Origin: Aureliella helgolandensis
GTDB lineage: Bacteria > Planctomycetota > Planctomycetia > Pirellulales > Pirellulaceae
DNA length: 64,000 bases
Assembly (NCBI RefSeq): GCF_007752135.1
Contig: NZ_CP036298.1
Coordinates: forward strand, 1,674,001 to 1,738,000
Direction: 5' to 3'
The translations under genes were made by a program, and so were the position numbers. The notes beneath the pieces were generated by a model. That model worked only from the letters and a program-made list of their open reading frames with translations, had not been told where the DNA came from and searched no databases. Positions 10,567 to 52,590 of this stretch are shown one piece after another (the stretch's first letter is position 1; every line of letters starts with the position of its first letter).

Positions 10567-11937
10567 ATGTGGTGGAGACTTCCTCGCGCAAGAGCGCTGG
10601 CTGCTGCGGCATGCCTCAGGCTGGTGTTCCTCGTGCTAGGGACAGCGGCAATAGGACTACCTTATTGCAGCGCGCAATCTAGCGATTTGCCTGCAGAATT
10701 CTCACGTGTGTCGGGTCGGTACGTTGACGTCATTACCGACATGGAGCTGACAGACAGTCTGCGAGAATTGCCAAGAGTGCTGGATGCCGCCGTCCCGATT
10801 TGGTGCAGCGAATTCGGCATCTCGGAATCGACCGTCGCAGACTGGCACTTGGAAGCCTTCATCATGAAGTCTCGCGAGCGATTTGAGGCGGCCCGTCTAA
10901 TCCCCAACGACATCCCGCACTTCCCGCACGGTTTTCAATGGGGCAATCAAATTTGGGTTACCGAGCAGGCCACCGAGTACTACCGCCGGCATCTGTTCCT
11001 TCACGAGGGGACACACTGGTTTATGAACCGAAAGTACCGCGAAAACGGTCCTCCCTGGCTGATGGAGGGTTTGGCGGAATGGTATGGCACACACACATGG
11101 GATGGGACCGAATTGCGGATGGGCATTATCCCGGCAAGTAAGTTGCAGGTACCGGGCTGGGGACGCATTTCACTCATCCAAGAACAAATGCAAGGAGGAA
11201 TAGCGCCCTCGCTCGAAACGATCATGCGATACGACACGCGGGCCCACAGCCAGGCGGAAGCCTACGCCTGGAGTTGGGCCGCCATCGTACTCTTCAAACA
11301 TCATCCTGAAGTGAAAAGAACCTTTGATCTACTCCTCAAACAACAGATGCAACCTGATGCAACTTTAACTCGCTGGTTTTTTCGTCGAGTGGGGGCCCGA
11401 CGATGGGCCGCCTTGCGACAGAGTTGGAATGCGATGCTGACAGAGGTCGCGTATGGATTCGCCCCATCCGTCGATTTGCTTGTATTTTCCCAAGATCCGA
11501 TCTCGCTGAATACCTCAGCACAAGCCCTAACAATCGACAGCACCCTTGGCTGGCAAGGTAGCGGACTGCTTGTTTCTGCTGGAACGCGCGTGCAACTCTC
11601 CGCTACCGGGGAATGCATCATTCGAGGCATGCCAACCGGCGCGACCGATCCGGAATCCATTTCAGTTCACAAACCATGGATTTGCCAGCCCCAAGGTGTT
11701 ACATTGGAATACCATCATGGTCAGCCGTTGGGACAGTTGCAGATGACAACCGCCGCGCCGCTCCCCACCGAGCCTGACTTTGCGGAACCGCTAACCGCGA
11801 TTCCGATTGGTCGTGGCGGAACGTTTGTGCTTCCAATTGACGGAGAACTGTTCTTCCGTGTCAATGAGTCGAGTGGTGCACGAACCGACAATTCGGGTAA
11901 GTTTGATATCCGTATTTACAAGGACATCGGAAGATGA
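10567..11937 (+). CDS. secreted gluzincin-like metalloprotease (HEGTH motif)
   Basis: From ATG 10567 the protein has 456 residues. It starts with a signal peptide (MWWRLPRARALAAAACLRLVFL...CSAQ). The zinc site is HLFLHEGTHWFM (HExxH) followed 19 residues on by WLMEGLAEWYGTH, with the expected third ligand Glu and an aromatic neighbour as in DUF1570-like peptidases. The C-terminal ~150 residues are beta-rich without recognised domains. An open frame continues upstream to 10441, but the signal peptide decides the start. The stop overlaps the next ATG (ATGA), so the thioredoxin-domain gene is translationally coupled. It is likely periplasmic; the substrate is unknown. Confidence 0.82.
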   Translation: MWWRLPRARALAAAACLRLVFLVLGTAAIGLPYCSAQSSDLPAEFSRVSGRYVDVITDMELTDSLRELPRVLDAAVPIWCSEFGISESTVADWHLEAFIMKSRERFEAARLIPNDIPHFPHGFQWGNQIWVTEQATEYYRRHLFLHEGTHWFMNRKYRENGPPWLMEGLAEWYGTHTWDGTELRMGIIPASKLQVPGWGRISLIQEQMQGGIAPSLETIMRYDTRAHSQAEAYAWSWAAIVLFKHHPEVKRTFDLLLKQQMQPDATLTRWFFRRVGARRWAALRQSWNAMLTEVAYGFAPSVDLLVFSQDPISLNTSAQALTIDSTLGWQGSGLLVSAGTRVQLSATGECIIRGMPTGATDPESISVHKPWICQPQGVTLEYHHGQPLGQLQMTTAAPLPTEPDFAEPLTAIPIGRGGTFVLPIDGELFFRVNESSGARTDNSGKFDIRIYKDIGR

Positions 11938-13490: not shown

Positions 13491-13544
13491 GCTGCAGCCG
13501 TGTGCTGCAGATGCACTATTGAACGCAAGACTCTTGCACCGAAT

Positions 13545-14780
13545 TCAAGAGGTCAATCCCGCTAGCTCCGTTGCCCGTTTCACACGGGCAATGGCTAGCA
13601 CGAAAGCGGCCGTTCTCAGGTCAATCTCTCGTGCGACCGATTCCTGCCAAACCTGCTCAAAGGCATCGCTGAGAGTTCGGTCAAGCTCTTGCCGCACGCG
13701 ATCTAGACTCCACCGATAGTGTTGGCGATTCTGCACCCACTCAAAGTAACTGACCGTGACCCCACCGGCGTTCACTAGGATGTCGGGCAACACGGTTACC
13801 CCCGCCTCGCGGAGCGCAGCGTCAGCCGAGGGGAGCGTCGGACCATTGGCGGCTTCGATAATCAATTTAGCCTTGATTTTATCGACATTTCCTTCGTGAA
13901 TCACGCCACCCAACGCGGCTGGAATCAACACGTCCACGTCCAAGGTAAGTAGATCATCAGCAGGCAGAAGTTCTGCCGCTCGATAACCGTTCAACGAACC
14001 TCTGTCGAGCAGATGCCGCAGTACGGCTGGAATATCTAGGCCATCAGGATTGTAATAGCAACCACTGATGTCGCTCACAGCCACGATAGGCAGAGTTGCT
14101 TCGTGCAGGAACTTTGCAGCATGCGAACCTACATTTCCAAATCCTTGGATCGCGGTACGACACGACTCGGCCCGCATTCCCATCCGTTTTAGGGATTTGA
14201 GCGTGAGGATACCAACCCCTCTGCCCGTAGCCTCCTCGCGTCCCTTGGCGCCATACTCTTCCACCGGCTTTCCCGTAATGACTGCAGGATTGAAACCGTG
14301 GTATTTCTCCCATTGATTGCGGATCCAAGACATCTCTTCGAAGCTGGTCCCCATATCGGGCGCAGGGATATCGGTGTCGGGCCCGATAATGTCATGAATC
14401 CCATCCACGAAGGCACGGGTCATGCGTTCGATTTCCTTACGGGAAAGACTTTTGGGATCCACCGAGATTCCCCCCTTGGCTCCGCCGTAGGGGATGTTGA
14501 CCACTGCGGTCTTCCAAGTCATCAAACTGGCTAGCGAGCGGACTTCGTCGATATCAACCTCGGGGTGATACCGCAGCCCGCCCTTCATCGGACCTCGCGA
14601 ATTATTATGTTGCACGCGATAGCCAAGGTGAGTCTGTACCTCGCCTGTATCCGTTTCGAACGCAACCTGTACGATCACCTCGCGTTTCGGGGTTAACAAC
14701 AGCTTCCGCATACTATCGGTCAAACCGAGCTGCTCTGCTGCTTGTTGGAAGTAAAACTCCGTTGCTTGACTAGCCTTCAC
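13545..14780 (-). CDS. gdhA: glutamate (Glu/Leu/Phe/Val) dehydrogenase
   Basis: 411 residues, normal for the hexameric NAD(P)-dependent enzymes that interconvert glutamate and 2-oxoglutarate plus ammonia. Visible motifs: NNSRGPMKGGLRYHPEV (substrate site Lys), NIPYGGAKGGISVDP with the catalytic Lys, PDTDIPAPDMGT, the dinucleotide fold AIQGFGNVGSHAAKFL and LIPAALGGVIHEGN. The fingerprint GFGNVG with Gly-rich loop is NAD(P)-type; coenzyme preference is not decided here. It is the last gene of a minus-strand cluster, 26 bp after the aldo/keto reductase. Confidence 0.95.
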   Translation of the reverse strand: MKASQATEFYFQQAAEQLGLTDSMRKLLLTPKREVIVQVAFETDTGEVQTHLGYRVQHNNSRGPMKGGLRYHPEVDIDEVRSLASLMTWKTAVVNIPYGGAKGGISVDPKSLSRKEIERMTRAFVDGIHDIIGPDTDIPAPDMGTSFEEMSWIRNQWEKYHGFNPAVITGKPVEEYGAKGREEATGRGVGILTLKSLKRMGMRAESCRTAIQGFGNVGSHAAKFLHEATLPIVAVSDISGCYYNPDGLDIPAVLRHLLDRGSLNGYRAAELLPADDLLTLDVDVLIPAALGGVIHEGNVDKIKAKLIIEAANGPTLPSADAALREAGVTVLPDILVNAGGVTVSYFEWVQNRQHYRWSLDRVRQELDRTLSDAFEQVWQESVAREIDLRTAAFVLAIARVKRATELAGLTS

Positions 14781-40370: not shown

Positions 40371-40417
40371 CAAGTAGCGGAGGAGGGATTCGAACCCCCG
40401 ACACGCGGATTATGATT
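40371..40417. repeat. attL: 47-bp copy of the tRNA-Met 3' part
   Basis: 47 bases starting CAAGTAGCGGAGGAGGGATT and ending ATTATGATT are identical to 49649-49695 inside and beside the intact tRNA-Met gene. Downstream the match breaks (TTCAAC instead of CCGCTG). This is the expected duplicated core after site-specific integration. Confidence 0.9.
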
Positions 40418-40581
40418 TCAACTTTTACAAGCTTCAAATTGCTGAAAAACCCTGCATTCCAAGCGTTTTCCATATTACCAGAGTGCAACACTGGTTGCAA
40501 TGATTGACAGTGAATCGCAGTAATTCGGTATTTGTCGGTATGGGGGATGGTACGGAACGCTGCACCCTGAGTTCCAACGAA

Positions 40582-40610
40582 AAAAGCTAGGCCAACTTGA
40601 CCCAGCTTTT
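40582..40610 (-). terminator. intrinsic terminator of the element's minus-strand transcript
   Basis: Stem AAAAGCT...AGCTTTT plus inner GG/CC pairs around CCAACTTG, with a T-run on the minus strand. It lies 66 bp after the stop codon of the last element gene (40677). Confidence 0.7.
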
Positions 40611-40650
40611 CGATTCAATGGTGCCAACTTGGCCCAATTGAATTTTGAGT

Positions 40651-40675
40651 CAATGTGGTCAACTTGACCACATTG
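40651..40675. promoter_or_regulatory. 25-bp near-perfect palindrome
   Basis: 12-bp arms CAATGTGGTCAA / TTGACCACATTG around a single C, right after the stop codon of the last element gene. The symmetry suits a dimeric DNA-binding protein. It could also strengthen transcript folding. Confidence 0.6.
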
Positions 40676-40676
40676 T

Positions 40677-41132
40677 CTATGCGTAGCAGAACGGTGAGCG
40701 GAAGAACTCCTCGAACGGCTTGAACTCCTCGGTGAGGACGTAGAACAACGTCACGTGACCATAGCCGCGGTTGAACGGGTCGTCGGCCTTACCGAGCTGC
40801 CACCAGCGAACTTTGTTAATCACGTGAACCCGCTCCATCCGTAGGCACCAATTGTTGATAGCCTGCCGGTCCTTGGTGACGAGGTAGGCGGCTGTAACGA
40901 GCTCATCGACGGGACCGCAATCCGCATAGGTGACATCCTGCCACGTTTCGGGGTGCGCTTCCTTGCAAGCTCGGCTCTCCAGGTCTGCCAGCTCCTGGGC
41001 GGAGACCGTGGGCATCTCAAAATCATCAGGATTGCGTTCTGCGGGGGCTGCGGCTTCACTTGGCTGGAATGTCACGATCGGCGCGAACGGGACGGTACAG
41101 AGAGACCTTAGAACGTGTCGTCGGCTTAGCAT
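40677..41132 (-). CDS. hypothetical protein with N-terminal signal-like sequence (element)
   Basis: 151 residues. MLSRRHVLRSLCTVPFAPIVTFQPSEAAA resembles a signal peptide with a twin-arginine-like SRRHVLR, though the hydrophobic core is short. The rest (SRACKEAHPETWQDVTYADCGPVDELVTAAYLVTKDRQAIN ... FEEFFRSPFCYA) has several Cys residues and no recognised family. It is the last gene of the element next to attL, and the position suggests an accessory (moron-like) gene. It is followed by a terminator. The intergenic gap to the next gene contains the palindrome array. Confidence 0.6.
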   Translation of the reverse strand: MLSRRHVLRSLCTVPFAPIVTFQPSEAAAPAERNPDDFEMPTVSAQELADLESRACKEAHPETWQDVTYADCGPVDELVTAAYLVTKDRQAINNWCLRMERVHVINKVRWWQLGKADDPFNRGYGHVTLFYVLTEEFKPFEEFFRSPFCYA

Positions 41133-41199
41133 TATCGGCTCCTTGTTAAGAAAGGATCCAAGCTAGGCGTGCCGGTGACACCTTTGGTCATTTTGAAAA

Positions 41200-41368
41200 G
41201 TAGAAGGCTCAATTGAGACTTCTACTCTGTCCTGGAACCAAGGCGCCAATTGGCACTTTGAAAGTAGAAAGGCCAATTGGCCCTTCTACTGAGGCTTTGA
41301 AGTCGGGTTTAAAGTCTCAATTGAGACTTTTTTCTAAGTTGGTTTTAATCCGCCAATTGGCGGTTTTT
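41200..41368. repeat. array of five CAATTG-centred palindromes
   Basis: Five inverted repeats share the centre CAATTG: 41200-41225 (GTAGAAG ... CTCAATTGAG ... CTTCTAC), 41245-41254 (GCCAATTGGC), 41263-41290 (AGTAGAA ... GGCCAATTGGCC ... TTCTACT), 41311-41330 (AAAGTCTCAATTGAGACTTT, then T-run) and 41350-41363 (CCGCCAATTGGCGG, then five T). The first and third share GTAGAA arms. The last lies inside the 3' end of the 66-aa ORF. Some may be terminators; the alternation of CTCAATTGAG and GCCAATTGGC types suggests protein binding. Confidence 0.75.
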
Positions 41369-41534
41369 CCTGCTCCCGTTCTTCCCGCCGCTTCCGTGCT
41401 TTCGTCCGCCAAGCCTCTCGCTCGGCCTCACAGTGTAAGCAACGCATGCCACCCTCGGAGAAAACCGTAGAACGTCGGCCGCACTCTCGGCACAGCTTCG
41501 GACTCAAGTAGACGCGCGGCTGGTGGAGTTTCAT
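41334..41534 (-). CDS. small zinc-ribbon protein (element)
   Basis: 66 residues: LCRECGRRSTVFSEGGMRCLHCEAEREAW (CxxC-x15-CxxC zinc ribbon), then a Lys/Arg/Glu-rich helix and PPIGGLKPT, whose codons form one of the CAATTG palindromes. It is 2 bp downstream of another zinc-ribbon gene and behind the capsid gene. It could be a nucleic-acid-binding or regulatory protein. No closer family recognised. Confidence 0.6.
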   Translation of the reverse strand: MKLHQPRVYLSPKLCRECGRRSTVFSEGGMRCLHCEAEREAWRTKARKRREEREQEKPPIGGLKPT

Positions 41535-41536
41535 CG

Positions 41537-41785
41537 CTATTTCCCAAGTCGTGCGACGCGATTACAGATACATACGAAGAGGGAGCCAGCACCAACATTG
41601 GAACGCATCAGAGGCTCGCGTTTAGGCTTCTCTGGTGCTTCGGCTTGTGCTTGCCGTACTTTCGCCTCGCATGAAACGCAACGGCCGGATGCTGCCCTGG
41701 CTGCAAATTCGCCACACTCGGGACAATATGCGGATGCCATCGGTGCGGCTGACATTCGGCGAATCGCGTTTCTATTTACCAGCAT
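41537..41785 (-). CDS. small zinc-ribbon protein (element)
   Basis: 82 residues: YCPECGEFAARAASGRCVSCEAKVRQAQAEAPEKPKREP, a CxxC-x13-CxxC zinc ribbon followed by a charged linker. It starts about 100 bp after the capsid stop; a Met at ~41752 (MSAAPMASAYC) is an alternative start. It is tandem with the similar 66-aa protein, suggesting an old duplication. Function unknown. Confidence 0.6.
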   Translation of the reverse strand: MLVNRNAIRRMSAAPMASAYCPECGEFAARAASGRCVSCEAKVRQAQAEAPEKPKREPLMRSNVGAGSLFVCICNRVARLGK

Positions 41786-41829
41786 GGTTGAACCCTTTGT
41801 AAAAAACGTCGGCCGGCGATGTTGAAGAT

Positions 41830-41856
41830 GCGAGGGGGTGTTTCAATTTCCCTCGC
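41830..41856 (-). terminator. hairpin between capsid and zinc-ribbon genes
   Basis: Arms GCGAGGG / CCCTCGC with a 13-nt loop in the gap behind the capsid gene. There is no strong T-run, so it may only attenuate transcription or protect the mRNA. Confidence 0.4.
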
Positions 41857-41888
41857 CACCGCCGGCCGCGCTGCTTTTGCGATTCCGC

Positions 41889-43145
41889 TTACAGGGAAAT
41901 GTCTTTCAAGCGATAGAATGCTCCTGTCCGTAGCAGAGCAAAGTCGATGCGAGTGGTGATTTTCACGTGCACCGCATGAGTCTCAAACGCATCCCCGCCG
42001 GTCGTTGTCGACTCGATACGCGCGGAGGAACGAATTCCCCATGCGAGTTGGCTCCAGTCTCCGACAAGCAGGTGGGTATTCGGGATGTTCGTGCTGTGAA
42101 TCATCGGAGAGGTGATTGTGGGCGTTTTGTTCAGCCAGCCTAGCGGAGCGTTGACACCATCACCGATTGTCGAGCTCAACAGGTGGTCGTGCACCTTCGG
42201 GGACATAATCGCCGCGTTCGGCTCCTCGTTGTTCTCGCGAATCTTCGTGAACGCTGTGGACAAATCCAACCAGTCAACTGCCGAGATTGAACCCGTTTCG
42301 CCGATGTCGGCATTGTTCAGCAGGCCAGACCAGGCAGCACCAGTGCCGTGAATCGCGAACCGATCGACCGCCGCCGCAAGGCTCCGCGTCAACGTGTTGT
42401 TAATCATCTCCGAGAAGTTAGGCGCGTCCTCTGCCAGCTCTCGGGAGACTTTGATTCGCGTGGCGACCGTTTTGGCGCTCATCACTACGGCACCCAAGCC
42501 GATGTCTGACTCCGTGATTGGCTCCAACTCAGCGTGCACCTCAAACTCAGGATCGCGCATCACGCGAGCTAAACTGATGTCCCCGGCTGGCATCAACATT
42601 ACTCGCGCTCCAGCCCGCAAGACTGCCGAACGTGCTCGCGCGGCGTCGATGATTTCACCCATCAGAACCTCGGGAACCATGAACCCACCGGACGAATTAT
42701 CGCCGGTCGTCATGGCCGACTTGATGATGTCGTGGGCGCCGCGGCTGCCGACGATAGAGGCTCTGGCAAGCTCTCCAATGCCGTTTTCGATTGGAGCCTG
42801 TCCAAGTGCATCAACTGCCTTGCCGTCGCGTGACAGCATCCGAACGCCACCTCGAAGCGGCTGTGTTGCGCCGACTCCCATATGCTCATTCAACGCGGAC
42901 TCGAGACGTCCGTGCGCCTTTTGATTGCGAGTAGCTTCAACGGACTTCGCTAAACGGATGTCTCCATTCAGCTTGCCGATTTTGCCGCTCTGGCCATCGG
43001 TGCCGTCACCGCCAACCAGGTCCAGGAGCTCCTGCGTTTCGGTCGCGCTCAATTCCCGATTCTCACGCTCAGCGCGTGCCATGATGCCATCGACGACAGC
43101 TAAAAGCTCATCGCGTTGTTCTGTCAAATCTCGTACTGATTTCAT
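41889..43145 (-). CDS. HK97-type phage major capsid protein
   Basis: 418 residues. Residues 1-~95 are a charged coiled-coil (MKSVRDLTEQRDELLAVVDG...), equivalent to the scaffolding delta domain of HK97 gp5. The HK97 fold then follows: SSGGFMVPEVLMGEIIDAARARSAVLRAGARVMLMPAGDISLARV (N-arm/E-loop), VSRELAEDAPNFSEMINNTLTRSLAAAVDRFAIHGTG (spine helix and P domain), and SQLAWGIRSSARIESTTTGG...HVKITTRIDFALLRTGAFYRL. The family assembles icosahedral shells with portal, protease and terminase, but none is seen in this element. Start ATG 43145 is preceded by AGGA. It lies downstream of the AlpA-like HTH gene. Confidence 0.92.
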   Translation of the reverse strand: MKSVRDLTEQRDELLAVVDGIMARAERENRELSATETQELLDLVGGDGTDGQSGKIGKLNGDIRLAKSVEATRNQKAHGRLESALNEHMGVGATQPLRGGVRMLSRDGKAVDALGQAPIENGIGELARASIVGSRGAHDIIKSAMTTGDNSSGGFMVPEVLMGEIIDAARARSAVLRAGARVMLMPAGDISLARVMRDPEFEVHAELEPITESDIGLGAVVMSAKTVATRIKVSRELAEDAPNFSEMINNTLTRSLAAAVDRFAIHGTGAAWSGLLNNADIGETGSISAVDWLDLSTAFTKIRENNEEPNAAIMSPKVHDHLLSSTIGDGVNAPLGWLNKTPTITSPMIHSTNIPNTHLLVGDWSQLAWGIRSSARIESTTTGGDAFETHAVHVKITTRIDFALLRTGAFYRLKDISL

Positions 43146-43255
43146 ATCAAAATTCCTGCCAAAATAGTTCTCAAATTAACAATTCACAACTTCACTTCGG
43201 CCGCACTGCTAAAGAGAACTGGCGGACATTCTTCGGAAACTTCACGTTCGCTTCT

Positions 43256-43465
43256 TCACTTCGATGAATCGCGTTCTGCTATGCGCGATTCGATGTATTG
43301 CTCAAGGTCGCATCGCTGCCAAACCAGCTTCCTCAGTCCCAATCGCAGCGGCTTCGGAAACTCCCCGGCTGCGACCCACTTCGTCAACGTGGCCTCGGAG
43401 ATGCCAAGTTCTGCGGATGTCGCCCCGGCTGTTAGGAATCGTGCTGGAAGGTCGCTGCTCATCAT
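43256..43465 (-). CDS. AlpA-like helix-turn-helix regulator (element)
   Basis: 69 residues from ATG 43465 (MMSSDLPARFLTAGATSAELGISEATLTKWVAAGEFPKPLRL...VWQRCDLEQYIESR). This is the MerR/excisionase-type winged helix of AlpA proteins, with the 'sEatl.kWv..geFP.P' pattern. A longer frame to 43600 is noise. The start overlaps the stop of the upstream 128-aa gene (ATGA). AlpA-type proteins activate integrase/excision genes in prophages and satellites. Confidence 0.85.
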   Translation of the reverse strand: MMSSDLPARFLTAGATSAELGISEATLTKWVAAGEFPKPLRLGLRKLVWQRCDLEQYIESRIAERDSSK

Positions 43466-43848
43466 TGCTCCATGGTCAAGTGGTGGGTTTCGTCGATGCA
43501 GGCCAGGATGGTTGCGACCTGCGAGACAACCTGCAACTCCAAGCTGTCCGCGAACTTGGCCTGCGCATCGCTCAGCGGTGACCTCGCTAGTCCATGACAT
43601 GCAACCAGGGCGTCCGACATAAAGCGGAGGTGCTCCTCCGGAATTTCGACCATCCCCGGCTCTGCTGAACCATCGGCATGCTCCCGTCGCGCGAACTCGT
43701 CACGAAAGACGGTGCTCAGCCAGGGGTGGAACGCGTTCTCGGCTGTGCGGAATGCGCACCGAGCGTTCCAACGGAACAATTCGCTGAGCTCCCGCCGGGA
43801 GAGTTTGGGGAGGAGGTCGCAATTGAGTGTTCGTCGTGTCATGCTCAA
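43462..43848 (-). CDS. hypothetical protein (element)
   Basis: 128 residues, MSMTRRTLNCDLLPKLSRRELSELFRWNARCAFRTAENAFHPW..., mostly helical and soluble, no recognised family. It is translationally coupled (4-nt overlap) to the AlpA-like gene and follows the HTH gene by 30 bp, so it sits inside a tightly packed operon. A DNA-processing or capsid role is possible but not shown. Confidence 0.6.
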   Translation of the reverse strand: MSMTRRTLNCDLLPKLSRRELSELFRWNARCAFRTAENAFHPWLSTVFRDEFARREHADGSAEPGMVEIPEEHLRFMSDALVACHGLARSPLSDAQAKFADSLELQVVSQVATILACIDETHHLTMEQ

Positions 43849-43878
43849 AATCCTATTCGCGGAAAGTGCCGATGTAAA

Positions 43879-44361
43879 CTAGTGTTCGCCCTGTTGCCGC
43901 TCAGTTGTTTGGAAGTGTTCGTTCGCGTTCGTTGGCTTTCTCGCCAACCAGGCATCAACATCCGATTTCAGCCATCGACCACGCATGAACTGCGCTGGCA
44001 TCGTCCCCTCGCGGGCCCATCGCCGGATGGTGTTGGAGGTAACCTCGAACAGCTTCATCAACTCGGTGGTTCTGTAAAACATAATTCTCTTCGCTTTCTG
44101 AAATTCCATTTGCGCGCCTTGCATCACACGCGTGAGACGATAGGTCGTCTGGGGGTCGAATCGCCACAATTCATGCCCCCCCGGGGTAGGTCCGGCCGGG
44201 GGTGCGCCAAAATCTCCAATTTTGTGGAAAGGCGCGCGCGTGAGACGATAGGTCGTTCCGGGTTGGCTCTGGACAAAAGACCCACCCCCGGTGCATACGT
44301 CCGTGAAGGCCTCTGACGTGCCGCCTGTCGCGTCCTGGCCCTGGTGCGGCTCGATGCTCAC
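43879..44361 (-). CDS. helix-turn-helix (excisionase-type) protein with repeat-bearing leader (element)
   Basis: 160 residues from a GTG overlapping the upstream stop (GTGA). The C-terminal half, MFYRTTELMKLFEVTSNTIRRWAREGTMPAQFMRGRWLKSDVDAWLARKP, is a MerR/excisionase-type winged helix. The N-terminal ~90 residues have low complexity and twice read TTYRLTR because of a 20-bp DNA repeat, so they may be a non-coding regulatory stretch. An internal start at MEFQKAKRIMFYRT (near 44109) is equally likely. It is probably a regulator or recombination directionality factor. Confidence 0.65.
   Translation of the reverse strand: MSIEPHQGQDATGGTSEAFTDVCTGGGSFVQSQPGTTYRLTRAPFHKIGDFGAPPAGPTPGGHELWRFDPQTTYRLTRVMQGAQMEFQKAKRIMFYRTTELMKLFEVTSNTIRRWAREGTMPAQFMRGRWLKSDVDAWLARKPTNANEHFQTTERQQGEH
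44129..44148. repeat. 20-bp direct repeat, copy 1
   Basis: CGCGTGAGACGATAGGTCGT recurs exactly at 44237-44256. Either a repeat in the N-terminal part of the HTH ORF or an operator pair in its leader. Confidence 0.7.
44237..44256. repeat. 20-bp direct repeat, copy 2
   Basis: Identical to 44129-44148, 108 bp apart, about ten helical turns, as would suit looping by a dimeric regulator. No tested function. Confidence 0.7.
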
Positions 44362-44537
44362 AATCGGTCCTCATCGTGCGTCTCGTGTGAAGCTGGGGGT
44401 TCGCTTGGTTTGTATCGCAGTCTCGTGCATCGGAGCTCATGACTTCGAAGGAGTCGCTTCAATAGAAGCCGCACGGCTCGGATGTCGTGCTGGCCGTCCA
44501 TTCGTAGCGTTATGGTGATTTCTTTGGGCTCGCTCAT
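44358..44537 (-). CDS. small hypothetical protein (element)
   Basis: 59 residues from ATG 44537 (MSEPKEITITLRMDGQHDIRAVRLLLKRLLRSHELRCTRLR). The ATG overlaps the stop of the primase gene (ATGA), and its stop overlaps the next GTG, so it is part of one coupled operon. The pattern 'ITITLR..d.IRAlR.LLKrLLR.H.LRC' looks like small proteins that travel with DUF3987 primase genes in mobile elements, an impression rather than an established family. Function unknown. Confidence 0.65.
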   Translation of the reverse strand: MSEPKEITITLRMDGQHDIRAVRLLLKRLLRSHELRCTRLRYKPSEPPASHETHDEDRL

Positions 44538-46801
44538 GGCTGCCAAGGCTCCCCGTAGACTGGCGATTCCGGCTCATCCTCTAGCGAATCCTGGACAGAA
44601 CCCTCGTTTTCCCAAGGATTAAGGGGGTTGTGTCCCAACTTTGTAAGAATGAATTTGCGAGTTGGCCTACCGCCAAGCTCAGAGGGGGGAGTCTCTTGCC
44701 AGCTCCCAAGGTCGGCATTCGCGAAACTGGTCAGAAGTGCGTCAGCATGTTCGCAGCTCTCGACAGAGGACCGATTAGCTCGGTAGAACTCTCGCGCCGT
44801 TACTGGTTCAGACTGTGCGGATAGCCATTGGATGAGGCTGCGGTTCTCAGTTGCCGCCTGAGACTCCTGGAGAACGCCATAGACTCGCCGCGCCTCGGAT
44901 TTGAACCACTCAACGATTTGAATCCCGGAAGCCATAGAGTCCAGGTCTACGTGGCTCCTGTCGGCCGTCTCTCCAAGGGCATGACGAATGCAATGGATGA
45001 CCAGTGCAATACGCGCTGCCACCTCTTCCAGTTTTGAGTACGCTGCAAAGAGATCCCCGTCCAGCGCCTGGGATTCTCGATTGTGTCGGTCGTAATATTT
45101 GACGAATACCCGTTTCGCATCGGGTGCAAGTCGGCAAAAGTAGGGCTTGGCCTCGCCTTCCTCATCAATGTTAAGCTCAAGCGATAGCAGGCTTTCGTAG
45201 ATATCACTCACGGACTCTTCGATGTGTTCGGCAATTTCGTCCTCTGTCCATCGGCGAACGATTCTAGGTGGCATTGCGAATAGTAGTCTTGCTGCCAGTC
45301 CAGAGGCCTTATGGTCGGCTGTGAGATGCCCTCGGAGAATCCCCGGCTGAATCGTACCCGTTAGGGAAACGGATGCTCTGTCGATAACGATAGGCCTCTT
45401 GCTGGCAGCTCTATCAATCACGCTCATCTGCGCGCCGTAGAACTCCAGCCACTTCGGCTCGTCGGAAGACTTGCCGCTTTTGTATCGGCTGAAGCTCGAG
45501 AACCATCCTGATAACTCATCGCTTGCACAGAGGAGGCCTCTAGGGTTCTCAGAGAGACGTTTTCCCAATGCCTCAACGGTCGTATCGTCTACCAAGACTC
45601 GCTTGCAAACTGGGGCTATTGGCGGGTCTGGTGGCTCCATGGCGCCCGGCTTGGCCTTCTTGAAGTCTGCGGATGCCTTGGAGTAGATTTCCAGCTCCTT
45701 CGCGTAGGCCTCATACGCAAGGTCGTATTCGCGAACCAACTTCCGCTGTCGAGCTCTCAGAGGACTCAAGGCGAGTCGCTGGGGAGCACTCTTGCCTGAA
45801 CCCGATTCAGCGATGACTACGCACCATAGGATGCTTGGGGCAGTCCAGTTACGCTTGACGGCCAAGGCGGTGGAATTGCCAACTGCCGATGCCAACCCCG
45901 CCAGCAATGGCAGAGCAATGAAACTCTCATCACAGCATGCCGCTCTTGCTCCCTGGCGGATGAATTCCGGTAGGGCTCCCGGCAGGGCATCGGTAGGGAA
46001 TGGAGCGAACTCCACCAGCTCGGGAATTACGTGATTTTCAGATTTCGTTTTAGTATTTGGGGACGAAACCTCACTTTTCCCAGGATTTAAGGGGGTTGTG
46101 TCCGGAGAACTAGAAACGATTTCCCGAAACTGCTCAACTGTCCCACCTCCAGCGAACCAATCAGATACGTCCCCCTTAGGCTGCAATCCTGGCAATTCGA
46201 CAATCACGCCACGGCCTAGCATGGCTTGAACATCCCTGGCGTGGTCTCGGCCTGTGTCGTCGTTGTCCGGCAGGATGTAGACGGTCTTGCCGTTGAAGTA
46301 TCCGCTCCAGTCGGCTTGCCACTTGCCAGCACCTCCCGCGTTGCATGTGGATGTGAAGCCATTCGCTCGCAACGTCTCTGCATCCTTCTCGCCTTCGACG
46401 ATAAAGACGGTGTCGGCCTTGATGACCTCAGGGAGTCGGTAGGGGACTCTGGTAACACCCTTTAGACTCCACTCACCATTCGCCTTGCGTTGCCGAAACT
46501 GCTTCCCCGGCTTGCGAACTACTGTATAGACGTGGTTCCCATCCGCATCGTGGTAGTCGTACTCAAGTGTCGATTCGACCAGAGGGGAAGACTCGCCGCT
46601 CAGGTCGGAATAGCTCAGCCCTGCGCCACTGAGGACGGCTTCGATGTGACAGTTGGCGTGACAATGGAGCAGCCAGCGGTCTGCGGTGCTCGTGATTGTT
46701 AGGCTTGCGGTGCCATCGTCATGAGCTGGGCATTTCGCTTGCCATTTTCCCTGACCAGTTGGCCGCACGTCTTTAAAATAACTTGGAATGTCGTTTCTCA
46801 T
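44534..46801 (-). CDS. CHC2/TOPRIM primase with DUF3987 helicase-like domain (element)
   Basis: 755 residues. Residues ~10-55 hold a CHC2-type zinc finger (WQAKCPAHDDGTASL...LLHCHANCH), ~130-210 a TOPRIM domain (TVFIVEGEKDAETL with Glu and ILPDNDDTGRDHA with the DxD), and ~265-700 a DUF3987 region with Walker A (IAESGSGKSAPQ) and a Walker B-like LLCASDELSGWFSS. Such primase-helicases replicate plasmids, satellites and phages. It is the largest gene of the element. It is coupled by 4-nt overlap to the small downstream gene and preceded by the DUF1580 gene pair. Confidence 0.9.
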   Translation of the reverse strand: MRNDIPSYFKDVRPTGQGKWQAKCPAHDDGTASLTITSTADRWLLHCHANCHIEAVLSGAGLSYSDLSGESSPLVESTLEYDYHDADGNHVYTVVRKPGKQFRQRKANGEWSLKGVTRVPYRLPEVIKADTVFIVEGEKDAETLRANGFTSTCNAGGAGKWQADWSGYFNGKTVYILPDNDDTGRDHARDVQAMLGRGVIVELPGLQPKGDVSDWFAGGGTVEQFREIVSSSPDTTPLNPGKSEVSSPNTKTKSENHVIPELVEFAPFPTDALPGALPEFIRQGARAACCDESFIALPLLAGLASAVGNSTALAVKRNWTAPSILWCVVIAESGSGKSAPQRLALSPLRARQRKLVREYDLAYEAYAKELEIYSKASADFKKAKPGAMEPPDPPIAPVCKRVLVDDTTVEALGKRLSENPRGLLCASDELSGWFSSFSRYKSGKSSDEPKWLEFYGAQMSVIDRAASKRPIVIDRASVSLTGTIQPGILRGHLTADHKASGLAARLLFAMPPRIVRRWTEDEIAEHIEESVSDIYESLLSLELNIDEEGEAKPYFCRLAPDAKRVFVKYYDRHNRESQALDGDLFAAYSKLEEVAARIALVIHCIRHALGETADRSHVDLDSMASGIQIVEWFKSEARRVYGVLQESQAATENRSLIQWLSAQSEPVTAREFYRANRSSVESCEHADALLTSFANADLGSWQETPPSELGGRPTRKFILTKLGHNPLNPWENEGSVQDSLEDEPESPVYGEPWQP

Positions 46802-46898
46802 CGCGTATAATCTTCATGAATGGGTGTCGTGCAGCTTCTCCTCGCTGCGTGATTGAATCGAAACGCTTGGGGCTCGGTAGGCCCTGGGCGTTTTGCAT

Positions 46899-47084
46899 TT
46901 AGCGGCTAACTGGTGGCGTCCAATAGCCACGTGCTGGCCATAGGCAATCGCTGGGCACAATCAGTCGTTCTAGCGTTGGCACTGGGAACTGGGCTTTCCA
47001 CTGCGACTGCAAGGCGGCCTCTAGCTCGGCCGTAAGCTCCAAGCAGTCGATGTTGCGGGACTCAAGCCATTGGATGAATGTCAT
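46899..47084 (-). CDS. small hypothetical protein (element)
   Basis: 61 residues from ATG 47084 (MTFIQWLESRNIDCLELTAELEAALQSQWKAQF...), starting 2 bp after the DUF1580 stop (TGACCATG). An open frame up to 47162 crosses the DUF1580 gene and is not supported. No family recognised; a small acidic/amphipathic protein of the replication operon. Confidence 0.6.
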   Translation of the reverse strand: MTFIQWLESRNIDCLELTAELEAALQSQWKAQFPVPTLERLIVPSDCLWPARGYWTPPVSR

Positions 47085-47086
47085 GG

Positions 47087-47341
47087 TCAGACCCCCACCG
47101 ATTTTTCGGTGCGTGCTGCGATGAATCGCGTTAGCGCCTGCCTGCTGGTGAACAACTGGCATCCCAGCCGAACAGCCTCAAGGCGGACGCCACCCACTCC
47201 CCGGTGAATCCAACGGGTCATCGTGGCCTTATCCGGTCGCTTGCCGGAGATTTTGAAGAGCTCGCTTCGGGCTTGTGCGAGCGTTAGGACGTCCTCACTG
47301 AGGACTTTTGAGACGGTAGATTCTGCCGACGTCTTGTGCAT
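47087..47341 (-). CDS. DUF1580 helix-turn-helix protein (element)
   Basis: 84 residues: DVLTLAQARSELFKISGKRPDKATMTRWIHRGVGGVRLEAVRLGCQLFTSRQALTRFIAART. The 'RRPxxxTlyRWxxrGvrGvrLExvrvGg.l.TSreAL.RF' pattern is that of DUF1580, known mainly from planctomycetes, with a MerR-like winged helix. It is likely a DNA-binding regulator of the primase operon that follows it. The upstream gap contains the 4 x 9-bp repeat array, which could be its target. Confidence 0.85.
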   Translation of the reverse strand: MHKTSAESTVSKVLSEDVLTLAQARSELFKISGKRPDKATMTRWIHRGVGGVRLEAVRLGCQLFTSRQALTRFIAARTEKSVGV

Positions 47342-47424
47342 AAAAAAACTCCCATAACGATGACTTGCAACGCTAGGGAGTATCTACTTGCTTAGCACTT
47401 TGGGCTACGGTTTTATCATGCCCG

Positions 47425-47460
47425 CTGAACGAACTGAACGAACTGAACGAACTGAACGAA
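47425..47460. repeat. iteron-like array: 4 x CTGAACGAA
   Basis: Four perfect tandem copies of the 9-mer CTGAACGAA lie between the 227-aa gene and the DUF1580 gene. Short tandem repeats upstream of a replication operon can be an origin or operator. One alternative is slippage DNA of no function. Confidence 0.85.
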
Positions 47461-47469
47461 AATTTGCAC

Positions 47470-48153
47470 CTATTCCTTTTCGGACTGTTTTTTCAGCCAT
47501 TGGTCGCACTCGTCCGCACGAAAGAAATGCTTTCGTCCGCACTTAATAGGCTCGGGGTGCCCCTGGCTATCGATTCGGTCGTTGAGTGTCGAGCCTGCGA
47601 TATCGTAAAACGCGAGTAAGTCCTTCCGCGCGACTAAGCCATCTTTATTCCGCAGCGCCGCTAATGGACTCTCAGAGTCGGTTTTGCTTGCTACTGCCGG
47701 GCGGGTTGGTGAATCTGGTGAATCCTCCTTGCGTTCAAGCAGGAATAGGAGCCTTCTCGCTCGGCTTAGGATCCGCTCGTATTGGTCAAAAAGGGGCCCT
47801 GTGAAACCAAACACCCTACCAAGCTCCTTTGGCAATTCGTGTTTGATGTGGTCCCACAACCACTGCTCACGTATCTCCCCCGTTTCTCGCATCCAGATTT
47901 TGAGTTCATCCAGGAAGTTCCCAAGCTCGATAACGAGGCTAGCGTCTTCTATGAACTCTAGGGCTGGCGCTCTCCTGGGAGAGATTAGCTTTCCCTCCAG
48001 CCGCACCAATGGCTCATCAGCCAGTGGGCGAATATCAACCTCTCCCTCAATTGCGTAAATCAAGTCTTCCTGCCCGAACGAAAAGTGGTCCCATTGGGTA
48101 ACAGAGAGGAACCGCCTGAGCTCGTCGGCTATGACGTCTTTAATGAATCGCAT
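47470..48153 (-). CDS. hypothetical protein with C-terminal HTH-like segment (element)
   Basis: 227 residues. The first ~170 (MRFIKDVIADELRRFLSVTQWDHFSFGQEDLIYAIEGEVDIRP...) have no recognised family. The last ~50 (RKDLLAFYDIAGSTLNDRIDSQGHPEPIKCGRKHFFRADECDQWLKKQ) look like an excisionase/AlpA-type winged helix with 'F.rade.d.Wl' ending. It may regulate excision or the early operon. Gene starts 108 bp behind the integrase stop. Iterons lie just beyond its stop. Confidence 0.65.
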   Translation of the reverse strand: MRFIKDVIADELRRFLSVTQWDHFSFGQEDLIYAIEGEVDIRPLADEPLVRLEGKLISPRRAPALEFIEDASLVIELGNFLDELKIWMRETGEIREQWLWDHIKHELPKELGRVFGFTGPLFDQYERILSRARRLLFLLERKEDSPDSPTRPAVASKTDSESPLAALRNKDGLVARKDLLAFYDIAGSTLNDRIDSQGHPEPIKCGRKHFFRADECDQWLKKQSEKE

Positions 48154-48261
48154 GCAGAATCCCTTAGGTTTAGAAAGTCGCTGCCAACCCGCACCGCGGC
48201 TAAGGGACCGAAGGACGGGCTGGCGGCGGGGTTAATTAGGCCCCTGGCGACAATGGTCAGA

Positions 48262-49521
48262 TTATAGCTTCGGTGCGGCGGCGGCGGCTCGGGTGGCGGC
48301 CTCAATCGATTCCCTGGCGTAGTGCGCTGTCATTAGAGCGGTAGAGTGCCCTAGAAGTGCCCTAGCCTCTTCGATTCCGAGTGCTGCTCGAACTACCGTT
48401 GCCGTTAGGTGTCGCAGTTGATACGGATGCCACTGGCGAACACTAGCTCGCCTAGCAGCTCGTTGAATCGCCTGCCGGTAGCTTGAAGTATCGTAGCGGT
48501 CCCTCGGCACACTCTTCGGCGTCTCCTTGCGGTTCGAACCAACACGGTTTCCACAGCTATCGGGAGTCACTCGATTCGCTGCTGCTACAGCATGCCGCCA
48601 AGCCATCGCTTCCTTGGGGGAAAAGCAGAAGGCATCGGGAGCTCTCTGTAAGAACTCCGTTACTGCCTCTCTTGCGTCATTCACCAACGGAATCGCCTTC
48701 GCTTTACCGCGAAAGCTGGTCTTATGTCGGCTGGGGTGGTAAATCCAAATATCGCCAGTACGGTCGATGTCGCACGGTCGCATGATGCAGATTTCGCTTG
48801 GCCTTGCTCCTGTCGCAATCTGAATCCGGAGCATCGCCTTGATGATTGGAGAAAGGTGCTCGGCTGTCTTGCGGACATCCTCGATATTGGCTGGCTCAAC
48901 CGCTGGTACTTCGGGGGCAGAGGTTTGCCCATTGCGGAGCGCTTCCAGAGTCTCCAGTCGGTGAACTAGGTCAATTCCTATCAGTTCGCCGGCCACGGCA
49001 TGTCGGAAGATTCCCACCACGCAGCGCACTAGGCGGTTGATATACTTCCGGGCTAGTGGTTTCTTGCCGCTATTGCCCTCGCGAATCAAGAACTCGCGAA
49101 ACGACTTCAACCTGACTGGGCCAAAATCCTGGGCCAATACTTCGCCGAATTGCTCCTCAAGCTGGCTACAAAGTCGCTCATGCCGTCGCATTTCTTGCGG
49201 TACGGTCGCATATTTCAGCTTGATGTGTTCCCGGAAGAGTGCAGTAACGTGCTGAACTTGGACTGGCTGGTCGGCCTGCTGCGCTGGGGTGTCGGCTACT
49301 CCCAGCAGGGTAGCTGCCTTGTGGTCGAGCTCAGCGGGGTCGAAGTCTTCCGGTAGCTTTAAACCGCCTGATTGATAGATTCCGATTAGGACGGCATAGC
49401 GGGCGATGCATTCCGGCGAATCATGCTTGCCTAGATAGATGTCTCGACCGTCAAGGGTGACGATGCTTTGCCCGGAGATGTGGTAGCGCCGTGCGGGCGC
49501 TTTTGCCTTGGGTCTGGCCAT
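48262..49521 (-). CDS. int: tyrosine recombinase / integrase (element)
   Basis: 419 residues with an N-terminal arm-type region (MARPKAKAPARRYHISGQ...), a SAM-like core-binding domain near 90-190 and the catalytic domain: Arg240 (ATGARPSEIC), the Lys beta-hairpin (RGKAKAIP), His365 and Arg370 (WHPYQLRHLTAT), His392 (LLGHS) and Tyr401 (AHYARE). All five conserved catalytic residues are present. It lies 131 bp from the intact tRNA-Met, as in tRNA-targeting integrases, and should insert and excise the element at the 47-bp core. Confidence 0.95.
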   Translation of the reverse strand: MARPKAKAPARRYHISGQSIVTLDGRDIYLGKHDSPECIARYAVLIGIYQSGGLKLPEDFDPAELDHKAATLLGVADTPAQQADQPVQVQHVTALFREHIKLKYATVPQEMRRHERLCSQLEEQFGEVLAQDFGPVRLKSFREFLIREGNSGKKPLARKYINRLVRCVVGIFRHAVAGELIGIDLVHRLETLEALRNGQTSAPEVPAVEPANIEDVRKTAEHLSPIIKAMLRIQIATGARPSEICIMRPCDIDRTGDIWIYHPSRHKTSFRGKAKAIPLVNDAREAVTEFLQRAPDAFCFSPKEAMAWRHAVAAANRVTPDSCGNRVGSNRKETPKSVPRDRYDTSSYRQAIQRAARRASVRQWHPYQLRHLTATVVRAALGIEEARALLGHSTALMTAHYARESIEAATRAAAAAPKL

Positions 49522-49648
49522 AGAAAGGGACTCCCGATTCTGTCGCCCTACCGAGTTTTTCGGTACGACTTCTTGGAAAACGGGGCCGCTCGTCGTGATG
49601 ACGGTAACGCGAAAAGTGCGTTCCAGCCTGTAAAACGTTGATTTTTTG

Positions 49649-49695
49649 CAAGTAGCGGAGGAGGGATTCGAACCCCCGACACGCGGATTATGATT
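49649..49695. repeat. attR: 47-bp core at the intact tRNA-Met
   Basis: Identical to 40371-40417. It covers the 3' part of the tRNA gene, including acceptor 3' strand, T arm and part of the anticodon stem-loop, so the gene stays complete after integration. Confidence 0.9.
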
Positions 49696-49726
49696 CCGCT
49701 GCTCTAACCAACTGAGCTACTCCGCC
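49653..49726 (-). tRNA. tRNA-Met (CAU)
   Basis: 74 nt without CCA. Acceptor GGCGGAG/CTCCGCT, D arm GCTC..GAGC, anticodon stem GCGGA/TCCGC with loop ATCATAA (anticodon CAT), T arm CGGGG/CCCTC-type with GGTTCGAATC. The sequence is that of an elongator tRNA-Met, though CAU could also be a modified Ile tRNA. It is the attachment site of the neighbouring element. Confidence 0.93.
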
Positions 49727-50840: not shown

Positions 50841-50870
50841 ATCCGAACTCCTTCCCACCTCCCCCCATCA

Positions 50871-51041
50871 GTGCCACCCACCTATCCCGATAGGTGCCAT
50901 CCATTGATTGGCAAATGTGGATGGCACCTTTTGGCTGCTTCGCGGGGGAAGCTGCTGCTAGCGAGAGCTCTGTGCTAGCAAAGACGATGAGACCCCGCAT
51001 GAGAGGCGGTGTTTTGCAGAGAGAGGCCGTCGTCTTCCAGC
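50871..51041 (+). repeat. tandem repeat unit, copy 1 (REP-like)
   Basis: 171 bp beginning GTGCCACCCACCTATCCCGA. It contains the inverted repeat CACCTATC/GATAGGTG and GATGGCACCTTTT, and ends CGTCTTCCAGC. It is about 90% repeated in the following copy and lies beside the RAYT transposase gene. Confidence 0.75.
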
Positions 51042-51048
51042 AACAAAT

Positions 51049-51233
51049 GTGCCACCCACCTATCCCGATAGGTGCCATCCACTGATTGGCAAATGTGGAT
51101 GGCACCTTTTGGCTGATTCGCGGGGGAAGCTGCTGCTGGCGAGAGCTCTGTGCTAGCAAAGGCGTCGCTTGTTGGACGATGAGACCCCGCATGAGAGGCG
51201 GTGTCTTGCAGAAAGAGGCCGTCGTCTTCCAGC
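51049..51233 (+). repeat. tandem repeat unit, copy 2 (REP-like)
   Basis: 185 bp aligning with copy 1 (same start and end motifs) with a 14-bp insertion GCGTCGCTTGTTGG near its middle. The pair contains several GGTGCCATCC/GGATGGCACC motifs related to the REPs on the other side of the transposase gene. Confidence 0.75.
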
Positions 51234-51323
51234 GGCGAGCTAGGCGAGCGCACAGCGATCGCGTGCTGCACAGGAGATCGTCGGAAAATGGGGGCTAGCT
51301 GGCAGGAGGCAGCAAGAAGGGGG

Positions 51324-52493
51324 CTACCCAGATGCGAGAAAGCACTCGCTGGCCTTCTGCTGGCCGTGATGGCAACGCCGATTGTGCCGACGTGCGTCGG
51401 CGGACATGGTACTCGGGCGCCCCGCACAGGTACTCCGGCCAAAGTAGCGTTTGTAATCCCACACCAAGTCACGCCACATCGAGACCTCGATCCCAGTCGA
51501 CGCTAAAGCCGACTGCAGTCGCTGCGGTACTTTGGAGGCGGCCTGCTTAATACGCTGGGCCGCCGTCCACTGCAGTAGCTCCAGGTACTTACTCCAGTCC
51601 ATGCACAAGAAGCCGCGGTCGCTGGCTCGCAATCCGCCCGCATGAGCCTGCGGGTCGTTCGACAACGTTTGACTGGCCAGTTCTAGAGGTGCCAGCCAGC
51701 TGTCTCGCAAGACACGCTTGCCGGTGGGATTGCGACGTTTCGCCTTTTGTTCCTGCATCCGCTGCTGCACGGGTGTCTCGCGTATTTTCTTCCCCGCTTC
51801 GGCGGTGGGCACCGCCCGTAGATCGAAGGCTGCTGAATCGATCTTTGCGCCCCGCTCAGCCTGGATGCGATCGTAGGCTGAGGTGTGTTCGGCTTGTTCC
51901 GGGGACTCGGCCATCGCCGCTCGAATGGGATTCAAGTCGACATACATGGCGCAGGCCAGCAAGCCCGCTTCGTCGGCGAGCCGTTGTGCTTTGAAGCGGC
52001 CTTCCCAGAATCGTCCCGTGCATTTCTCTTGAGCGTTCGCGAGCCGCGCGACAGGCTCGGCCAGAGCTCGCATAAACCAAGAGATATCAGACAAACGCGA
52101 GCGAATCACCGCCATGCGCTCCTGGTCTCTAATTAACGCCTGCACATCGGCCTCGGTGGGCTCTGCCAAATGCTCCTCAAACCGACGCCCGGGAAAGACT
52201 TTCAGCCACCGCTGGGCAACCTCTTCCTCCGACCACAGGGCAACCACGTCGGGACGATTTCGCAAGATGATGTGGAGGTGTGAGCTGAGAATGGCATAGG
52301 TCAGTACGTCTATGCCGAACGCGGAAGCGAGGGCTTCCATCCGTCGCCGGATCCACTCGCGGCGGAAGGAGTAATCCTTACCAGAGACGGGGTCGACGCC
52401 AGTCAGGAACGCTCTTCGTACACAACGTTGTATGGCATGCACGATACAGACTTCGCCCGCTTGAAATTGTTCATTACGGTTGGGTCTACTCAT
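51324..52493 (-). CDS. REP-associated tyrosine transposase (RAYT, Y1/HUH-type)
   Basis: About 389 residues from ATG 52493 (MSRPNRNEQF), chosen because AGGAGGT lies 7 nt upstream. The HUH motif is SSHLHIILRNRP, and the catalytic Tyr is probably in LLACAMYVDLNPIRA, with TGRFWEGRFKAQRL between them, as in IS200-like TnpA_REP proteins. The C-terminal ~120 residues are basic. RAYTs mobilise or maintain REP palindromes. GATGGCACC/GGTGGCACC repeats occur on both sides here. It is the only gene in a REP-rich stretch. Confidence 0.9.
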   Translation of the reverse strand: MSRPNRNEQFQAGEVCIVHAIQRCVRRAFLTGVDPVSGKDYSFRREWIRRRMEALASAFGIDVLTYAILSSHLHIILRNRPDVVALWSEEEVAQRWLKVFPGRRFEEHLAEPTEADVQALIRDQERMAVIRSRLSDISWFMRALAEPVARLANAQEKCTGRFWEGRFKAQRLADEAGLLACAMYVDLNPIRAAMAESPEQAEHTSAYDRIQAERGAKIDSAAFDLRAVPTAEAGKKIRETPVQQRMQEQKAKRRNPTGKRVLRDSWLAPLELASQTLSNDPQAHAGGLRASDRGFLCMDWSKYLELLQWTAAQRIKQAASKVPQRLQSALASTGIEVSMWRDLVWDYKRYFGRSTCAGRPSTMSADARRHNRRCHHGQQKASECFLASG

Positions 52494-52590
52494 CACAAGC
52501 ACCTCCTAGGAGCACCGGTTCAGTCTAACATTCTGTCATCCTTCGTCAATTAAAATCTGGCGGATACCTACTTGACAATCCGCGGGAGAT

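Follow-up and report, generated by a model that had tools for sequence, protein, structure and literature searches.

Organization of the integrated element

In the genome of Aureliella helgolandensis, which consists of a single contig of 8.44 Mb, we have investigated a stretch of 64,000 nucleotides (positions 1,674,001 to 1,738,000 of NZ_CP036298.1), here termed the window, for which a preliminary description had proposed a 9.3-kb element integrated at a tRNA-Met gene. Throughout the text, L-numbers refer to stretches around relatives and G-numbers to genomes. The element is bounded by two identical direct repeats of 47 bp at a spacing of 9278 bp, an agreement far beyond chance, and its size is 9.28 kb (Table 1). 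The right copy (attR) overlies the 3' part of the tRNA-Met(CAT) gene, and the proposed boundaries and insertion site were both borne out. An Rfam scan of the window placed the tRNA alone above threshold. We did not find arm-type repeats common to both ends of the element, although L031, L033, L042 and L047 do have such repeats, nor did we find an empty site for it in the genus, where the tRNA-Met gene and the gene at the right flank match separate places.

Searches against Pfam and PHROGs agree with the gene content that had been read from the sequence, with an integrase, a DUF1580 protein, a DUF3987 primase, several helix-turn-helix (HTH) regulators and a single HK97-type major capsid protein (MCP), and all profile-matched genes from the integrase to the MCP are located on the minus strand. 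The overlaps between primase and p62 (ATGA), p62 and HTH160 (GTGA) and p128 and the AlpA-like gene (ATGA) are consistent with the partial translational coupling suggested earlier, with the MCP gene separated by a gap of about 110 bp. For the primase, previously described as a CHC2/TOPRIM protein, the profiles support the DUF3987 region, TOPRIM is weak in Pfam (0.1) with PHROG primases matching residues 78-237, and the N-terminal CHC2-like cysteines are a reading by eye without profile match. A homologue of this protein is found in L125 (E 1.8e-96), and it is also the target of the one weak match, DnaG-like, that PADLOC returned on the element (8.7e-5). The 227-aa HTH protein shares 35% identity with a protein of L098 that adjoins a related integrase.

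The capsid protein scores 93.4 bits against Phage_capsid (PF05065; gathering score 24.2), placing it within the family. Its A2 profile matches capsid proteins of the PDB, one of them across its N-terminal part, which reads as a putative delta domain. In line with the earlier statement that terminase, portal, protease and tail genes are absent, 10 open reading frames (ORFs) of the element gave no Pfam or PHROG match at E<=0.001 to a portal, TerL, protease or tail family, and five further ORFs had no PHROG match at E<=0.01. Two of the HTH proteins show weak matches to PHROGs of the small terminase subunit TerS (0.0034 and 0.23), which we ascribe to the shared HTH.

Table 1. Features of the element; positions refer to the window.
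Feature	Position	Strand	Basis
attL, 47-bp direct repeat	40371..40417		exact copy of 49649-49695
Three-hairpin cluster, GGTCAAGTTGACC-like cores	40560..40675		folding
151-aa ORF	40677..41132	-	no Pfam/PADLOC match; single PHROG match at 0.14
Imperfect-palindrome cluster, cores TCTCAATTGAGA / GCCAATTGGC	41197..41330		folding
66-aa Cys-containing ORF	41334..41534	-	ORF list only; no PHROG or PADLOC match
82-aa zinc-ribbon-like ORF	41537..41785	-	DZR 0.0019, under cut-off
HK97-type MCP, 418 aa	41889..43145	-	PF05065 Phage_capsid 2.1e-26; phrog_10 major head protein 6.7e-38
AlpA-like HTH protein, start overlaps p128 stop (ATGA)	43256..43465	-	PF05930 Phage_AlpA 2.2e-6
p128, small conserved protein upstream of AlpA-MCP	43462..43842	-	A10 alignment and profile matches in other genomes
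HTH_17/MerR-like regulator (HTH160), real start probably internal	43879..44361	-	PF12728 HTH_17 6.2e-9
62-aa ORF (p62), overlaps primase end by ATGA	44358..44546	-	sequence; no PHROG match
Primase-helicase, DUF3987 and TOPRIM region, 755 aa	44534..46801	-	PF13148 2.3e-72; PHROG helicase 7.3e-43, PHROG primases
DUF1580 protein	47087..47341	-	PF07618 8e-10
227-aa protein, C-terminal HTH, probable regulator	47470..48153	-	weak PHROG excisionase/DNA-binding matches 0.006-0.08
Tyrosine integrase, 419 aa, adjoins tRNA	48262..49521	-	PF00589 Phage_integrase 2.1e-15; PHROG integrase 2.1e-29
attR, 47-bp direct repeat over tRNA-Met 3' part	49649..49695		repeat search and ARAGORN
tRNA-Met (CAT), integration target	49652..49726	-	ARAGORN; Rfam tRNA 1.6e-13

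Related elements in other planctomycetes

A protein search with the MCP in 297 genomes of the class found matches in 52, its own included, with the eight best places elsewhere being 28-40% identical. Islands around the closest MCPs are compact and most combine the capsid gene with a primase or helicase, HTH genes and either an integrase or a recombinase, the latter in L034 and L036 being identified by eye as a serine recombinase. The search for the same gene logic at tRNA genes of other planctomycetes, which had been put forward as a check, has thus provided seven relatives bounded by exact repeats of 22-47 bp at tRNA ends: L031 at tRNA-Thr (9840 bp), L032 and L033 at tRNA-Lys (9857 and 9159 bp), L042 at tRNA-Arg (9462 bp), L051 and L063 at tRNA-Ala (9450 and 10252 bp) and L047 at tRNA-Gln (10474 bp, with a repeat of 22 bp only). 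Their spans of 9159-10474 bp and that of the window element average 9.72 kb (standard deviation 0.47, n=8). A second repeat was not found within the stretches examined for L037, L040 and L041.

In a Pfam analysis of 99 ORFs from the seven bounded relatives (56 from four and 43 from three; at least 50 aa, non-overlapping sets), Phage_capsid was present once in every element and a P27-type TerS (Terminase_4) in four (L032, L033, L042 and L051), and portal, TerL and protease families were found in none. The relatives are compact, and do not resemble the scattered remains of a decayed prophage that would have spoken against a satellite. L047 encodes, besides its MCP, a tape-measure protein (11431-13953; PF20155 2.8e-21, phrog_9959 1e-30), the only one among the seven, which could retune the tail length of a helper, yet a portal or terminase was not recognized in this element. 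A whole-genome search for the portal family PF04860, and for this portal family alone, placed no match near a satellite-clade MCP in any of 14 genomes (the window's own, G128, G237, G286, G045, G295, G221, G073, G216, G579, G471, G487, G444 and G549), the nearest matches, weak or strong, being on other contigs or megabases away.

In the five congeners of L033, out of 17, that were inspected closely, the tRNA-Lys gene and the right flank are kept and the DNA of the element is absent. The left flank has a match about 4 kb off in G069 and G013, a 39-bp junction beside a copy of the attachment site in G108 and no match in G008 and G225, so a clean empty site is not among them. Where a congener has the L033 element, L141 (5126-7006) contains two copies of tRNA-Lys with 1.7 kb between them. 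Just outside the attachment site of L051, a second integrase and a DUF1580 gene (5529-7188) suggest tandem islands at tRNA-Ala.

Phylogeny of the capsid protein

The 57 MCP ORFs that we found include many duplicates, and 38 rows entered a first tree, with the partial sequences of L035 and L039 left out. In this tree, 16 MCPs from satellite contexts, among them that of the window, form one clade (support 98/94), and all eight phage-labelled and all 12 unlabelled rows are located outside. A second tree, which includes MCPs of viral contigs and more phages and from which six of the 12 unlabelled rows had been dropped beforehand, recovers a clade of the 16 satellite rows and four rows resembling capsid-forming satellites (cf-like; 97/94), and the clade persists in a third tree with the plasmid pCD630 added (97/95). 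None of the 14 phage-labelled rows of either tree falls inside. Within the clade, a subgroup of 10 MCPs that contains the window and no cf-like member is supported (97/99 in the second and 99/98 in the third tree). Because resemblance to the satellites governed the choice of rows, a phage that was not sampled may still belong to the clade.

Outside the bounded elements, the label 'satellite' denotes a stretch without portal or protease by our own hidden Markov models (HMMs), of which the 'TerL' model derives from two prophage genes that had been identified by their length and position and not by profile. Some of these contigs are short (below 7 kb for L048, L049 and L053), and the labels are backed by the PF04860 searches of whole genomes. 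The label 'phage' in planctomycetes denotes an adjoining portal or protease, in L038 and L064 a protease alone, and the genome of L038 has no PF04860 match. Among the cf-like rows, L102 and L103, both short contigs, may represent fragments of phages. L104 is a circular-looking viral contig of 10,290 bp with a terminal repeat of 127 bp and, because it combines TerL, HNH, S78 protease, MCP, portal and integrase genes, looks like a capsid-forming phage-inducible chromosomal island (cf-PICI); it also encodes an AAA-domain protein, and its MCP belongs to the satellite clade.

The window MCP used alone as query found no relative in the genome-contig and viral-contig collections, and among viral-contig searches with closer MCP alignments, A7 and A9 found none and A8 found 17 contigs. 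A tblastn search of plasmids gave 18 records and, among the five of the 18 for which matches were listed, the Clostridioides difficile plasmid pCD630 has a lone MCP (L145, 555-1886; 26% identity, E 6e-19), which matches the window protein more strongly than the best phage record (2e-8). It is located inside the satellite clade of the third tree, although its place is unsure because of a long branch. In five pairs of relatives, the ratio of non-synonymous to synonymous changes (pN/pS) of the MCP is 0.29-0.58, with some pairs near saturation at silent sites and the window MCP having no partner sufficiently close for this comparison; the capsid proteins of the relatives thus appear to be under purifying selection.

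The host genome encodes two further PF05065 proteins, both within 6 kb of portal genes (at about 3.49 and 6.60 Mb), and BLASTP detected no similarity of the window MCP to either (E>1). A TerS gene beside one of these loci clusters with the TerS genes of the satellites. The two loci are possible helpers, and the helper may also be located elsewhere.

A conserved gene upstream of the capsid gene

The p128 gene is conserved upstream of the HTH-MCP pair, and in the A10 alignment of seven rows E51, R54, R55, E63 and P70 are invariant. The A10 profile matched seven of 397 genomes of the class at E<=0.01. Beyond the training rows and a second copy in G286, two matches are below 1e-7, in G228 (3.1e-10), where p128 is flanked by a DUF3987 primase on one side and, on the other, by an HTH-MCP pair that the contig end truncates, and in G221 (2.0e-8), where the contig ends 565 bp past p128 and an MCP opens another contig, so that we infer the adjacency. 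Neither a tblastn search of the phage collection with two p128 members nor a comparison to the PDB (best E 0.62) returned a match of significance.

G286 has two elements, each at a tRNA-Arg gene of its own, with a common 2.3-kb block of 96% identity, which extends from just after the primase via p128 into the MCP as far as the contig end, and their primases and integrases are 30% and 63% identical. To judge from these sequences, a cassette of p128 and MCP can be exchanged between platforms for integration and replication.

Relatives of the integrase are found at E<=1e-60 in 47 of 241 genomes of the family, own included. DUF1580 was recognized in nine of 20 related-integrase loci, and Pfam was applied to 84 ORFs of at least 100 aa from 11 of them. 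L092 is a bounded element of 9.96 kb in which a window-type integrase is combined with another capsid type, a 685-aa Phage_capsid_4/gpT-type protein (6361-8418, 1.6e-30). The unbounded L089 contains a GpA-type terminase nuclease domain.

Relationship to known satellites

Satellites with a lone MCP are already known. A lone MCP homologue is described in 21 of 29 reference Gram-negative phage-inducible chromosomal islands (PICIs; PMC10111431), PmCI172, which has an MCP homologue, makes small heads, and deletion of the capsid gene of EcCICFT073 left interference unrelieved (PMC6092414). Novelty here lies in the lineage of the capsid protein, in p128 and in the phylum, and we found no paper on planctomycete phage satellites among open-licence full texts of PubMed Central (PMC). 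The preliminary description was right that capsid-forming satellites usually carry more packaging genes, but the lifestyle itself is better described than it assumed.

The window element has the gene set of Gram-negative PICIs, an integrase, an AlpA-type HTH gene and a primase in an island of about 10 kb bounded by attachment sites. EcCICFT073, PmCI172 and Eco567.11capE share these genes, are 10-20 kb long and often carry one MCP gene, some also terS (PMC6092414, PMC10111431). The MCP of Eco567.11capE, however, belongs to the lambda E family (PMC10111431), unlike the PF05065 protein of the window, and the Gram-negative PICIs of a 2018 study were found in Gammaproteobacteria (PMC6092414). Ccm of SaPIbov5 is likewise a lone HK97-type capsid homologue, with a cleaved delta domain and no satellite protease identified in the description, and occupies only the pentamers of a shell that is otherwise made by the helper (PMC8569155). 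Although cf-PICIs too have their own capsid protein, they encode in addition protease, portal, connectors, TerS, TerL and HNH (PMC10690885) and average 14 kb (PMC10803314), whereas the element of 9.3 kb has the MCP only, and neither its ORFs nor the 99 ORFs of relatives contain the portal, protease, connectors and TerL that characterize the group. Phage-inducible chromosomal minimalist islands (PICMIs) share the integrase, AlpA, the DUF3987-type primase and the small size but are described as linked to fis and as lacking genes for capsid remodelling or any identifiable packaging genes; the window element, with its MCP and tRNA-Met site, differs on both counts, and the 10 ORFs examined with Pfam gave no match to a Fis family. 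The 7.9-kb pCD630 is a small element with a lone MCP as well, yet it is a plasmid whose gene table, which is incomplete, lists a helicase but no integrase. MCP and TerS genes may also be present in some tycheposons. The gene order of the window element presumably differs from that of Gram-negative PICIs.

Proposed lifestyle and alternatives

We assign a probability of about 0.7 to the reading that the window element is a phage satellite of a planctomycete family which replaces or remodels the head of its helper. The existence of comparable elements elsewhere among planctomycetes makes it likely that we are dealing with a functional parasite of viruses and not with the debris of a former virus. 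Excision, induction, packaging, the use of a helper and the role of p128 we infer as follows. The integrase would insert the element at tRNA-Met and, together with an HTH/AlpA-type excisionase, excise it again, upon which its own primase-helicase would amplify it while a helper phage is active. The MCP would then provide the assembly line of the helper with a satellite-type head, for which p128 would cooperate with the MCP cassette and probably contribute to assembly or to when it takes place. Portal, delta-domain protease, terminase motor, connectors, tail and lysis would come from the helper. In the absence of a recognized TerS, it would fall to the helper terminase to recognize the DNA of the element.

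Several observations weigh against this reading. The TerS present in four of the seven bounded relatives is lacking in the window, which leaves specific packaging unexplained, and the resident phage loci need not be helpers, given the absence of similarity between the capsid proteins. AlphaFold predicted the MCP with low confidence only (predicted local distance difference test score 46.5), and the model gives no support. The satellite-context MCPs of L059 and L063 in the first tree and of L125 (partial) in the third fall among phage MCPs. The window-type MCP was seen in none of the 20 related-integrase loci (L084, L086 and L098 being contigs below 5 kb), and since it is present in the window and in the two elements of G286, it looks like a plug-in cassette; exchange in G286 is not confined to this cassette, because two shorter blocks (435 bp, 91%; 94 bp, 96%) are also alike. 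The conservation of p128 has its limits as well. The p128-like proteins of L032, L033, L036 and L042 are just 11-15% identical to that of the window and not matched by the A10 profile (in G128, another element alone matched), and are therefore positional guesses. In L048, p128 was assigned by position, the candidates of L063 and L059 have no credible alignment, and scans with our own HMMs labelled no p128 in L034, L037, L052, L053 and L054. The weak A10 matches of G575 and G526 (E 0.006-0.008), which by the same models have no MCP, look like chance.

Regarding the shell, the MCP could form all or most of a small head sized for one genome of 9-10 kb, a proposition to which we give a little less than an even chance, or it could form part of a mixed shell in the manner of Ccm, co-assembling with the helper capsid protein, for example in pentamers, and forcing small heads without ever assembling alone. 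This second arrangement we rank as less likely and consider doubtful, although the surroundings of the window MCP are as bare as those of Ccm, which is 24% identical to the capsid protein of its helper and, with its delta domain cleaved and no protease identified in SaPIbov5, makes up the pentamers in T=4 procapsids (PMC8569155). The precedent of a protease-less HK97-type protein that only fills pentamers nevertheless weakens the earlier proposal of a shell of its own, of which the satellite-like island, recurring in seven bounded relatives, is the part that stands. Ccm was inferred to be of phage origin (PMC8569155), whereas the 16 satellite-context MCPs constitute a clade without tested phages, which in the larger trees takes in the MCP of a contig with portal, protease and TerL; together, the absence of phages and the presence of cf-like members appear to favour the full shell. 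The lacking similarity to the resident phage-type MCPs also disagrees with a mixed shell, though co-assembly with another helper would be compatible with it. That the MCP is not structural at all, and instead disturbs helper head assembly or serves in defence while the DNA of the element travels as concatemers in helper heads, is improbable. Capsid genes of PICIs are reported as dispensable for transfer, and EcCICFT073 is found in full-size heads (PMC10111431, PMC6092414), PICIs of about 9.2-10.5 kb using full heads do exist and the lack of the MCP in related-integrase loci fits with such a role, but the narrow size range of 9.2-10.5 kb, the constrained full-length MCPs of the relatives and the TerS genes in four of the seven point to packaging.

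We consider it very improbable that the element descends from a complete prophage by decay and has retained integrase, primase and MCP by chance. The single virion gene and the presence in the genome of two further loci that combine portal and MCP would agree with such an origin, which is disfavoured by exact attachment sites and ORFs that are intact, by compact elements of the same logic that recur in other genera at tRNA-Thr, -Lys, -Arg, -Gln and -Ala, by an MCP clade without a phage member among those tested and by the absence of BLASTP similarity to the resident phage-type MCPs. Compatible with a satellite is a descent by reduction, in which portal, protease and TerL were lost from an L104-like ancestor. 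The cf-PICI-like gene set of L104 and its MCP within the satellite clade speak for this route, which we view as possible but rather unlikely, as the cf-like rows are located beside one subgroup only, with none in the window subgroup of 10. Both loss and gain of the cf genes would agree with this distribution and an unrooted tree.

With more reserve than for the complete small shell itself, we propose that the satellite reading may extend to a separate lifestyle between PICIs and cf-PICIs. Such elements would use a dedicated HK97 capsid lineage, apart from phage capsids and reaching from Planctomycetota to a Clostridioides plasmid, in which one protein, with p128 as new assembly factor, makes a complete small shell on the portal, motor and tail of the helper; the cassette would move between platforms, and relatives would add TerS or a tape measure to retune steps of the helper. 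If true, the phylum gains a family of satellites, p128 as a new conserved gene and a capsid lineage that serves satellites and not the phages tested. One could then test whether one satellite-coded capsid protein can replace a whole helper head, with the helper giving portal, protease and motor, and the relative L047 with its tape-measure gene suggests that satellites may retune tail length too.

Further features of the element and its surroundings

Besides the conserved p128 gene, the analysis has added to the preliminary description two palindrome clusters at the left end of the element, which flank the 151-aa ORF. In the whole 8.44-Mb genome, a palindrome with GTAGAAG arms (up to two mismatches) has two occurrences, and these fall within the cluster at 41197-41330. 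Possible functions of the clusters include origin iterons, terminators and packaging signals. Outside the element, the window contains repeats at 50863-52502 with copies elsewhere in the host genome, beside an ORF that we take, by eye, to be a look-alike of REP-associated transposases.

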